Assembly (NCBI RefSeq): GCF_037997115.1
Contig: NZ_CP150484.1
Location: 5,372,400-5,436,399, forward strand
Direction of reading: 5' to 3'
Source of the DNA: Amycolatopsis coloradensis
Lineage (GTDB): Bacteria > Actinomycetota > Actinomycetes > Mycobacteriales > Pseudonocardiaceae
Length of the DNA: 64,000 bases
The position numbers were made by a program, and so were the translations under genes. The notes below the pieces were generated by a model, which worked only from the letters and a program-made list of their open reading frames with translations, was not told the origin of the DNA and did not search any database. Position 1 is the first letter of the stretch. Each line of letters starts with the position of its first letter. Shown here piece by piece: positions 9,830-63,199 of this stretch.

Positions 9830-10234
9830 GTCCGTGAAGGCCTCCTTCCCTACCTTGAGAGTCGGGGTCCCGGCGAAGTCGCCTAAACGCTGGCCGGTGC
9901 CGTTCTTGGTGATTCGAGGTGGGCCTCCCGAACGGGCCGATGACAGAGGCTCTGAACGGACGATGTCCACAGAGGACACCAGAGGGGCATATGAATGTCC
10001 GTTTGATGCTTATCTGTACGGTTTTGATGGGGGTCGTGAGTGGTAAGGACGGTTCTAACCCTCCTTATCACTCACGACCACTTCGCAAAACGCCCGAATC
10101 GGGCACGGTCACCCCGAAAGCCTCCCCTGTGGACAGTCGAGAAGTGTCAGGCCCTCCGCCACTCACTTGGGCAGCGTGAACACGACTTTGCCGGAACCCT
10201 GACCCCGAAAGCAGGGAAGGAGGCCTTCACGGAC
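9830..10234. repeat. Intergenic repeat element, copy A, bounded by 22-bp inverted ends
   Basis: No gene is convincing from 9824 to 10275. 9830-9851 and 10213-10234 are a perfect 22-bp inverted repeat containing GTGAAGGCCTCCTT. From about 9830 to 10152 the sequence matches 48189-48514 over roughly 325 bp with only scattered substitutions and small indels. Shared segments include GTCGCCTAAACGCTGGCC, CGATGTCCACA, ATGCTTATCTGTACGG and CGCAAAACGCCCGAATCGGG. Short ORFs inside are not conserved in frame between copies, so it looks like a noncoding dispersed repeat or miniature mobile element. Confidence 0.8.
10035..10076. repeat. Hairpin CGTGAGTGGTAAGGA...TCCTTATCACTCACG
   Basis: Arms 10035-10049 and 10062-10076 pair, with an inner GGTT-CT-AACC stem at the tip (10051-10060). 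The same hairpin occurs at 48395-48437 and, outside the large repeat, at 62716-62757. Confidence 0.8.
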
Positions 10235-10275: not shown

Positions 10276-11297
10276 ATGATCACGATGTCCGCCGGACTCG
10301 TGCCCACCGCGCCGGAACCGCCGTCGCGCTGCTGCCCGCGCTTCCTCCGGCCGACCCGCTCGACCGGTACGCGATCCGGCACATCACCACGCTTTGGCTC
10401 GAGACCGACAAGACCGATCACACCCGCCGCGCCTACTACGCCGACCTCTCCGCCTGGCTCGGCTGGTGTGCCCGCACCGGGCGCGACCCGCTCATGGCGC
10501 GCCGCGCCGACGTCGACGCCTGGAAGAACACCCTCACCGTCACCGGCAAGGACGGCCTGCCCCGGCCCGCCGCGGACTCCACCGTCGCGCGTACCCTCGC
10601 CGGCATCTCCAGCTGGTACCGATACCTGCAGTCCAACGACATCGCCGACCGCAACCCGATCTCCGCGGTCAACCGACCCAAGACCGGCAAGACCCCGCCA
10701 CTGCCCGCGCTCGGCGGCGAGTCGACGGCGAAACTGCTGAACCACATGGAGAAGCGCGCCCGCGCGAACGACACGGAACCGTCCTGGCGCGACGCCGCCG
10801 TCGTCGCGATCCTGTGCTACACCGGCTTGCGCGTCTCCGGCCTCACCACCGCCACCGTGCAGGACCTCGACACCGACTCCGGGCACACGATCCTGCGCTA
10901 CACCGCCAAAGGCGGCCACCGCGACTTCGTCCCGCTCGCCCCCGCCGCCCAGCACCCGCTGCGCCGCTGCCTCGAACTGCGCGCCGCGCGTACCGGCGTC
11001 CGCTACGACAGCACCAAATCCGGCGGGAAACCACTGGCGCAACGGGATGTCTGGTTCCTTCTGCGGGCACAGGCCCGCGCCGCCGGACTCGCCGAAGCGA
11101 ACACCATCTCCCCGCACACCGCGCGGCGCACCACGGGAACCCTGCTGCTGGCCAATGACGTTCCGGTCCAGAAGGTCCAGGACCTGTTGGGACACGCCGA
11201 CATCCGCACCACTCGCGACCGCTACGACGCGCATCGCCACAAGCTGGAGACCTCTCCCGTGCACGCGCTCGCCGACGCACGGCACCGTCAGAGCTGA
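10276..11297 (+). CDS. Tyrosine recombinase/integrase with a frameshifted N-terminus
   Basis: From 10323 on, one frame gives a full tyrosine recombinase: SAM-like N-domain (HTRRAYYADLSAWLGWCARTG), then catalytic residues Arg in TGLRVSGL, Lys in TAKGGHRDFV, HTARR, LLGHADIRTT and the nucleophile Tyr in RDRYDAH. That frame has no usable start before Met 10494. An ATG at 10276 with GGATG spacing opens another frame (MITMSAGLVPTAPE) that would join the recombinase if one base were missing near the CCGCCG run at about 10319-10324. It therefore looks broken or mis-sequenced at the N-terminus. It lies beside a dispersed repeat and an IS remnant. Confidence 0.8.
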
Positions 11298-17536: not shown

Positions 17537-17554
17537 GTGACGAGTCTAACTAAT

Positions 17555-17598
17555 CGTTGGGCACCCGAACGATTCCGGTATCGTTTGGGTGCCCAACG
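17555..17598. promoter_or_regulatory. Long palindromic operator between MarR and epoxide hydrolase
   Basis: The 19-nt arms 17555-17573 and 17580-17598 pair at 18 of 19 positions around TCCGGT. The core is CGTTGGGCACCC against GGGTGCCCAACG. The site starts 18 bp upstream of the MarR ATG and lies in the divergent promoter, so a MarR dimer or pair would block both directions. Confidence 0.8.
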
Positions 17599-17627
17599 TT
17601 TAGTGCACCAACGGATCGGGAGAGTAC

Positions 17628-19765: not shown

Positions 19766-20221
19766 ATGTCGCTGGACCACCAAGTGCTCCCGGTCGAGTC
19801 ACGTTCGATCCGCCCCCGGGGCGATGCCTTCTACGGCAGGCTCTTCGGCTGGTCGCTCAAATGGCTAGGTCCACAGCCGTTCCTGGTCCTCGAAGGCGGG
19901 ATCTGCGCGGTGACCCTGCCCAAGATCAACGGCGCCCAGGTCCTCGCCCGGCTCGCCGAGACCGGCTGCGAAGGCCCCGCCATGACGGTACTGACGCAGC
20001 AGGGACCGCGTGTGGCCATTCTCGCGGAGACCGACGGGCTGATCCCCTCTCGGGATTCCCTGCCGCAGCACGTCGAAGTACTCGCCTGGGGCACGCTGCT
20101 CCCCCTTCCCGCCGACTCCGGCCGGGCAGAGGCCCACGCGGAATGGCTCTCGGCACCGGATCCCCGGCAGAGGTGGCTTCCCAGCCTGGACGCCGTCCTC
20201 GCGGGCGTCCGGCCGAGGTAG
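19766..20221 (+). CDS. Hypothetical protein
   Basis: A 151-residue cytosolic protein of unknown function begins MSLDHQVLPVESRSIRPRGDAFYGRLFGWSLKWLG. It has repeated-looking VLEGGICAVTLP and VAILAETDGLIP strands and a C-terminal APDPRQRWLPSLDAVLAGV. It has no catalytic motif I recognise. GGAAGG at 19752-19757 supports ATG 19766 over an earlier in-frame ATG at 19715, which lies close to the operator. It is divergent from TetR and could be its target. Confidence 0.7.
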   Translation: MSLDHQVLPVESRSIRPRGDAFYGRLFGWSLKWLGPQPFLVLEGGICAVTLPKINGAQVLARLAETGCEGPAMTVLTQQGPRVAILAETDGLIPSRDSLPQHVEVLAWGTLLPLPADSGRAEAHAEWLSAPDPRQRWLPSLDAVLAGVRPR

Positions 20222-30223: not shown

Positions 30224-30238
30224 CCCCCGCATTGGACA

Positions 30239-30289
30239 CCGTGCCCCAGGGGCATGGTCAAGCGGCTTGACCATGCCCCGAGGGCACGG
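30239..30289. promoter_or_regulatory. 51-bp palindrome with MerR-type divergent promoters
   Basis: Arms 30239-30262 and 30266-30289 (24 nt, two mismatches) surround CGG. Each arm holds a smaller inverted repeat of GTGCCC/GGGCAT type and a TTGACC-like box reading outwards (CTTGACC at 30266). This resembles two back-to-back MerR promoters sharing a centre. Confidence 0.8.
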
Positions 30290-30332
30290 TCTCGAATACG
30301 CCCGTCGGTGATCATTCCAAGATCGGGGGAAG

Positions 30333-38721: not shown

Positions 38722-38768
38722 GTGAAGGCCTCCTTGCCTACCCTGAAGGTAACGAAGGAGGCCTTCAC
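38722..38768. repeat. GTGAAGGCCTCCTT hairpin
   Basis: GTGAAGGCCTCCTT (38722-38735) and AAGGAGGCCTTCAC (38755-38768) form a perfect 14-bp stem with a 19-nt loop that includes a smaller inverted repeat. The same arm forms the inverted ends of the repeat at 9830-10234. The rest of 38643-38856 holds only this and the next hairpin. Confidence 0.8.
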
Positions 38769-48188: not shown

Positions 48189-48514
48189 GTCCGTGAAGGC
48201 CTCCTTCCCTACCTTCAGGGTCAGGGTCCCGGCGAAGTCGCCTAAACGCTGGCCGGTGCCGTTCTTGGTGATTCGAACTGGACCTCCCGAACGGGGCCGA
48301 ATGACAGCGGCCCTGAACCGACGATGTCCACAAAGGACGCCAGAAGACAGATGAATATCCGTTTTATGCTTATCTGTACGGGTTTGACCGAGGTCGTGAG
48401 TGATCAGGACGGTTCTAACCCTCCTTCATCACTCACGACCACTTCGCAAAACGCCCGAATCGGGCACGGTCACCCCGAAAGCGTCCCCTGTGGACAGTCG
48501 AGAAGTGTCAGGCC
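48189..48514. repeat. Intergenic repeat element, copy B
   Basis: This matches 9830-10152 in the same orientation over about 325 bp with scattered substitutions and small indels. It begins at the same CGTCCGTGAAGGCCTCCTT boundary and ends at GAAGTGTCAGGCC, 10 bp before the mptB stop. It lacks the right-hand portion (10153-10234) that closes copy A with an inverted end. The stretch 47996-48524 has no convincing gene. Confidence 0.85.
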
Positions 48515-55818: not shown

Positions 55819-55880
55819 GCGTTTCGTCCTCTGAACGCGGTGGTTGCACACGCAAGCACCGCGTTCAGAGGACGAAACGC
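55819..55880. terminator. 24-bp perfect hairpin downstream of the membrane protein
   Basis: 55819-55842 and 55857-55880 are perfect 24-nt inverted arms (core CGTCCTCTGAACGCGG) with a 14-nt spacer. It lies 7 bp beyond the stop of the minus-strand gene at 55887. It is a strong terminator by position, though longer than most. Confidence 0.8.
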
Positions 55881-62706: not shown

Positions 62707-62715
62707 GACCGGCTT

Positions 62716-62757
62716 CGTGAGTGGTAAGGACGGTTCTAACCATCCTTACCACTCACG
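62716..62757. terminator. Hairpin CGTGAGTGGTAAGGA...TCCTTACCACTCACG between convergent genes
   Basis: A perfect 15-bp stem (62716-62730 and 62743-62757) with an inner GGTT-CT-AACC tip. It overlaps the HxlR stop (62753) and serves both convergent genes. The same hairpin is found inside both copies of the dispersed repeat (10035 and 48395). Confidence 0.85.
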
Positions 62758-63199
62758 AGGAAGTGGCGCGACGACTGCTCCGTATCAGCGTCATGTCCTT
62801 CTCCCGCACCGGTTCGCGGCAGTGCGCGCATACGGTCTCCGGCGCGAGGACCTCGCCGCACGAATGCCGCCACACCGTCGGCGGCGGCCCCTCCGTGACG
62901 TGCGCGTCGCCCCAAGCCATGAGGTTCAGCAGCACGTGATTGAGGGCGTGCCCGGCCTCGGTGAGCACGTACTCGTAGCGCGGCGGATGCTCCTCGTAGA
63001 GGCGCTTTTCGAGGATTCCCGTCTCGACGAGCTTCCGCAGCCGCGCGGTCAGGATGTCCCGGCTCGCCCCCGTGTTGCGGACGATCTGGTCGAACCGCCG
63101 CGCACCGAAGAACACTTCGCGCAGCGCGAGCAGGCTCCAGCGCTCCCCGATCACCTCCATCGCGTTGGCGATCGAGCAGTCCCTCGGTCCTTCGGTCAT
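62753..63199 (-). CDS. HxlR-family regulator with C-terminal zinc ribbon
   Basis: A 148-residue protein: the HxlR winged helix (DCSIANAMEVIGERWSLLALREVFFGARRFDQIVRNTGASRDILTARLRKLVETGILEKRLYEEHPPRYEYVLTEAGHAL, about 6-85) has a Cys near position 7 typical of thiol- or aldehyde-sensing HxlR proteins. A C-terminal C-x11-C-x2-C ribbon follows (HSCGEVLAPETVCAHCREPV). It faces a thiolase gene across tandem 23-bp palindromic sites. Confidence 0.9.
   Translation of the reverse strand: MTEGPRDCSIANAMEVIGERWSLLALREVFFGARRFDQIVRNTGASRDILTARLRKLVETGILEKRLYEEHPPRYEYVLTEAGHALNHVLLNLMAWGDAHVTEGPPPTVWRHSCGEVLAPETVCAHCREPVREKDMTLIRSSRRATSS

Follow-up and report, generated by a model that had tools for sequence, protein, structure and literature searches.

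A putative ISAs1-type miniature element within an intergenic hairpin of Amycolatopsis coloradensis

Anatomy of the composite repeat

An intergenic repeat in the 64,000-nt stretch of the Amycolatopsis coloradensis contig NZ_CP150484.1 analysed here (the window) is very probably a non-autonomous DNA transposon with ISAs1-type ends that inserted at the dyad centre of a palindrome. An earlier note on this DNA had described two blocks matching over their full length, in the same orientation and beyond chance, and alignment bore this out: 9830–10153 and 48189–48514 lie on the same strand and share 91.7% identity over 327 columns (E 4e-132). The match is real, but the block ends given in that note are not those of the element. 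Copy 1 continues to 10234, with 9830–9895 matching 10169–10234 in inverted orientation, and the shared block appears 325 bp long because copy 2 lacks the right end (right TIR and right F1 arm). Similarity between the copies fades ~12 bp beyond 48514. A genome-wide search (9.06 Mb, one contig) recovered 11 copies with lengths of 230 bp or more and identities of 87–100%, plus ~30 partial or diverged ones. A segmental duplication with only two copies, which the note had named as the alternative, is ruled out by these 11 copies. The repeat is present in ~30 of the 35 Amycolatopsis genomes searched and in almost none of the genomes sampled outside the genus.

As judged from its sequence, copy 1 is a composite, namely a MITE within the loop of an intergenic hairpin. 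The left arm of the outer hairpin (family F1; 9830–9851, plus strand, GTCCGTGAAGGCCTCCTTCCCT) is an inverted match to the right arm (10213–10234, plus strand, AGGGAAGGAGGCCTTCACGGAC), and F1 hairpins also occur elsewhere. The left target-site duplication (9852–9862, plus strand, ACCTTGAGAGT) is the 11-nt centre of an F1 hairpin and equals the centre of empty F1 hairpins, CCCT[ACCTTGAGAGT]AGGG. Between this and the right duplication (10202–10212, plus strand, ACCCCGAAAGC)—which has diverged, 7 of 11 positions being identical to the left and 4 of 11 differing—lies the 339-bp ISAs1-type MITE (9863–10201, plus strand), with ends CGGGGTCCCGGCGAAGTCG ... CGACTTTGCCGGAACCCTG whose first 32 nt match at 24 of 32 positions. 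The MITE is multicopy and has neither coding capacity nor a transposase gene. The segments outside it, 9830–9862 and 10202–10234, thus read as one hairpin split in two. Within the MITE lies a second hairpin of 46 nt, belonging to family F3 (10033–10078, no strand assigned; GTCGTGAGTG...GTTCTAAC...CACTCACGAC), which shows covariation, has exact-ended copies in the genome and serves elsewhere as an IS481 target.

Copy 2 repeats this layout on the plus strand up to its truncation. It comprises a left F1 arm (48189–48210) matching copy 1 in sequence, a left target duplication (48211–48221, ACCTTCAGGGT) whose right counterpart is lost, and a MITE (48222–48514) without the right TIR and right F1 arm. 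Its inner hairpin (48393–48439, no strand assigned) is an exact-ended F3 copy at G000:C1:5420792-5420838.

Four copies (L001, L003, L004 and L006) share a nearly identical mismatched pair of duplications, which suggests recombination or conversion between copies, and not four simple insertions. Elsewhere, a composite copy (L070 505-1004, G000:C1:7112004-7112503) joins a partial MITE end, an F1 arm and a complete MITE, all lying within a perfect duplication of 11 bp (GCGTCTAGCGC). This locus forms a pair with L009 in which F1 and F2 arms are mixed, again suggestive of recombination between copies.

ISAs1-type ends and MITE-free sites

Public genomes were scanned by an exact pattern corresponding to the inner part of the inverted repeat of copy 1. 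In a Saccharothrix genome this revealed an insertion sequence of 1.3 kb that has CAGGGTTCCGGCAAAGTCG at one end, the complement of this at the other and an 11-bp duplication (CCACCCCCCGG) on its flanks; it encodes a transposase of the ISAs1 family (NF033564, E 1e-51; Pfam DDE_Tnp_1 and DDE_Tnp_1_assoc). More generally, NF033564 ISAs1 elements of 1.2–1.35 kb from Saccharothrix and Amycolatopsis have the terminal sequence CAGGGTTCCGGCAAAGTCG ... CGACTTTGCCGGAACCCTG. ISAs1 genes were found in 13 of 80 Amycolatopsis genomes, and the ends were identical in the full-length copies read. The right TIR of the window MITE agrees with several Amycolatopsis ISAs1 insertion sequences at 19 of 19 positions and its left TIR at 15–16 of 19; because its ends match these insertion sequences, the MITE is placed at 9863–10201. 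Other copies are flanked by perfect duplications of 10–11 bp (e.g. ACCCTGAAGGT at L024, CCTTGAGGGT at L008 and GCCCTCAAGG at L060). The MITE thus resembles ISAs1-family elements (NF033564) and the MITEs derived from insertion sequences in its ends (CAGGGTTCCGGCAAAGTCG), its 10–11 bp target duplication and its non-coding nature; unlike ISAs1-family insertion sequences, it occupies long intergenic hairpins at their dyad and brings a second hairpin of its own.

We envisage that an ISAs1-type transposase, acting in trans, placed the MITE into the dyad centre of an intergenic palindrome. Insertion duplicated the central 10–11 bp and left one arm of the hairpin on either side of the MITE, where the two resemble extra-long terminal repeats. 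The transposase may since have been lost or be located elsewhere: none was detected in the A. coloradensis genome by a protein search that ran without a positive control and weighs little alone. With no ISAs1 transposase detected, the MITE is probably stranded in this genome.

Sites without the element were found in related species. At the site of L004, a copy in the A. coloradensis genome, eight relatives were read, and five of them carry an uninterrupted F1-type hairpin (e.g. GTCCGTGAAGGCCTCCTTCCCTACCCTCAAAGTAGGGAAGGAGGCCTTCACGGA), the flanks aligning almost to the last base, and the sites orthologous to L006 and L008 likewise hold MITE-free hairpins in relatives. At orthologous sites, species differ in the palindrome present, which may be F1, F2, F3 or a member of other, unrelated families. 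The A. coloradensis genome itself contains 31 exact-armed empty F1 hairpins, several of which have the centre ACCTTGAGAGT seen as the left duplication in the window. One empty F1-type hairpin, the kind of site that the MITE enters, is located in the window at 38722–38768 (GTGAAGGCCTCCTTGCCTACC[CTGAA]GGTAACGAAGGAGGCCTTCAC).

Among the identities proposed in the earlier note, that of a miniature mobile element is the one borne out by terminal inverted repeats, target duplications, an autonomous relative and MITE-free sites. The same holds for exact insertion boundaries, for which the note had suggested looking: the ISAs1-type ends at 9863 and 10201 adjoin the 11-nt duplications, the right one diverged. 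The 405-bp block of F1 arms plus interior could alternatively constitute one REPIN-like mobile palindromic unit whose enzyme recognises the outer arms (GTCCGTGAAGG). Four copies with nearly the same mismatched inner duplication pair, and the dispersal of short F1 hairpins in many copies, would fit such a unit, but the arms are not flanked by any visible target duplication, relatives already carry an empty F1 hairpin at that very base position, and the ends matching those of a known transposase are the inner and not the outer pair. We therefore regard it as improbable. A reading of the whole 405 bp as a MITE that ends in GTCC and has terminal repeats of 66 bp was dropped as well, as the inner ends match ISAs1 and the outer arms are those of the target hairpin.

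Dyad-centred hairpin targets

Dyad-centred stems were scored at 28 MITE sites with duplications and at 20,000 random positions within these loci; 17 of the MITE sites lie above the 99th percentile of the random set, against an expectation of 0.3. Many of the loci derive from a small number of species, meaning that the sites are not all independent. Scanning the collection with the MITE's own end sequence biases the MITE sample, not the target position. The longest target arm, from Amycolatopsis sp. WAC 01376, is perfect over 29 bp. Five MITE sites (L018, L135, L150, L207 and L209) are not within long palindromes; some of these are from other genera or may reflect chance pairing of the pattern. 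Full-length Amycolatopsis ISAs1 elements occupy short hairpins rich in G+C (GCCCCC ... GGGGGC), their duplication falling on the loop, and these are only marginally above the random control (8 of 15 sites above the 95th percentile and 1 of 15 above the 99th). In other genera of the order, ten ISAs1 elements had stem scores of 1.5–6, none above the 99th percentile. Since they stay under that level, targeting of long hairpins is not ISAs1-wide, and hairpin targeting as a general ISAs1 trait found no support in other genera of the order.

The inner hairpin is itself a dispersed family. F3 has 45 exact-ended copies in the A. coloradensis genome, stand-alone or embedded (0 in the control), 24–122 copies in most Amycolatopsis sampled and 0–2 in the majority of the family's other genera, a few exceptions aside. 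The earlier note had proposed a check for covarying structure, and the variable F3 stem does covary, with 86 double-changed cells vs. 42 in shuffles (none of the 500 shuffles reached 86), although these counts are inflated by related sequences. Arm exchange is also visible, e.g. where the two arms that meet at the dyad differ in type. A stand-alone F3-type hairpin with neither MITE nor insertion sequence is found in the window at 62715–62758 (TCGTGAGTGGTAAGGACGGT[TCTA]ACCATCCTTACCACTCACGA).

One MITE copy (L060, G000:C1:2094922-2096656) contains a 1.3-kb IS481-family insertion sequence within its inner F3 hairpin (best family NF033577, 215.8 bits, slightly under the curated cut-off of 224), giving the nesting order F1 hairpin, MITE, F3 hairpin, IS481. 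The 1.7-kb span of this copy had made it a candidate for the autonomous parent of the MITE, which the identity of the insert rules out. All five copies of this insertion sequence in A. coloradensis lie inside an F3-type hairpin that they interrupt, as do most copies elsewhere in the genus, and their duplication, mostly 16 bp, is dyad-centred (e.g. GACGGTTCTAACCGTC). Across the genus, 29 of 33 IS481 sites, the five in A. coloradensis among them, exceeded the 99.9th control percentile (median stem score 20 vs. 2.5 in the control), with a dyad offset of 0 in nearly all 33. Dyad-centred hairpin targeting by ISAs1-derived and IS481 elements is well supported by these sequences. The earlier note's idea of a recombination target survives only in an unforeseen sense, with the inner hairpin as a landing site for IS481-family insertion sequences.

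What the transposases recognise can be read in two ways. Each might read the sequence of a particular repeat family, and not the hairpin or its dyad symmetry, a real possibility though short of likely: the targets in any one species are mostly drawn from a single family (F1/F2 in the case of the MITE, F3 with the core GTTCTAAC in that of IS481), but the hairpins that MITEs enter vary in sequence between species (F1, F2 and the A. suaedae AGCACGTGAAGG and TTGAATGAGTCATTCA types) while the dyad position is constant, and IS481 keeps its dyad-centred position at L279 and L284, where the hairpins are of different sequence. Alternatively, we tentatively propose, as a scenario that we rate somewhat below even, that intergenic Amycolatopsis hairpins form a shared landing-pad system, in which at least two unrelated DDE families would choose the dyad by shape (cruciform or symmetry), not by sequence, and hairpin-bearing MITEs would swap terminator hairpins.

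Gene context and relation to known systems

MITE copies are mostly found at gene 3′ ends, with 8 convergent, 5 tandem and 1 divergent arrangement among 14 assessed by a simple GC-frame method. Because of this position, often between convergent genes, we infer that the hairpins may act as bidirectional transcription terminators. Insertion into a terminator hairpin would then be harmless, and would be tolerated further because the MITE supplies a replacement: its own hairpin could assume the terminator role once the outer one decays, amounting to hairpin turnover via MITEs. Window copy 2 and, in a relative, L088 have retained the left part and the inner hairpin and lack the right part; both look like intermediates of such a replacement.

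The earlier note had also considered an RNA gene family, for which the Rfam covariance models at gathering thresholds gave no match in the window, even though the MITE bears a strongly covarying hairpin that is also found elsewhere in the genome; a tRNA search likewise found nothing. A structured non-coding RNA or terminator family maintained by selection without any transposition might account for the strong RNA fold (z −11), the covariation of the inner hairpin and the position at gene 3′ ends. Yet the fold is a direct result of the inverted repeats, no Rfam model matches, and insertion is shown by the duplicated targets, by sites lacking the MITE and by an autonomous insertion sequence with matching ends. 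As a full account it is contradicted, and we consider it very improbable; a terminator role of the hairpins is compatible with the MITE explanation.

Directly downstream of copy 1, at 10276–11297, lies a gene for a XerC/XerD-like tyrosine recombinase. Its role as the mover is unsupported, as the adjoining flank also aligns in relatives that are MITE-free there, and its link with the MITE looks accidental.

Several known systems offer parallels. Correia/NEMIS and ERIC elements are non-coding repeats of 100–400 bp that fold end to end, as does the Amycolatopsis repeat; unlike in those elements, its outer fold appears to belong to the target hairpin and not to the element. With REP/REPIN sequences and their RAYTs, the Amycolatopsis hairpins share an intergenic palindromic nature, tens of copies per genome and covarying stems, but they are near-perfect over 46–54 bp, have symmetric ends and belong to several families that replace one another at orthologous sites. 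Repeated extragenic palindromes are also where IS1397, ISKpn1, IS621, ISPpu9, ISPpu10, ISPa11, ISPsy8 and ISRm22 insert, whereas the present case involves ISAs1-derived MITEs and IS481, in actinobacteria, with a duplication centred on the dyad. The known REP-palindrome-targeting insertion sequences belong to the IS3, IS110, IS4, IS256 and IS5 families (PMC1525189). Our literature search, which covered mainly open-access papers, returned none on Amycolatopsis MITEs or on hairpin targets of ISAs1 or IS481.

ISAs1-derived elements and IS481 extend the list of transposon families to which extragenic palindromes offer safe landing sites, on unusually clean evidence, comprising a dyad-centred duplication and element-free sites in several species. 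How a transposase finds a palindrome becomes testable in a pair of unrelated enzymes. If true, landing pads combined with replacement by MITEs would explain why sister species carry different palindromes at the same base position, and would offer a mechanism for the rapid turnover of intergenic hairpins between species.

Other repeats and palindromes were noted in passing. The right flank of one MITE copy (L072) holds another intergenic repeat of ~90 bp (CGCGTGAAGGCCCCCCTCCCTCGGCTCAGCC...GGCCTTCAC), which occurs many times in relatives. In the window, long palindromes at 30228–30300 (73 bp) and 17549–17604 (56 bp) matched none of the hairpin families studied. A near-perfect 62-bp palindrome at 55819–55880 (GCGTTTCGTCCTCTGAACGCGG...CCGCGTTCAGAGGACGAAACGC) belongs to another family, and similar words recur at a hairpin site in L093 and L094.
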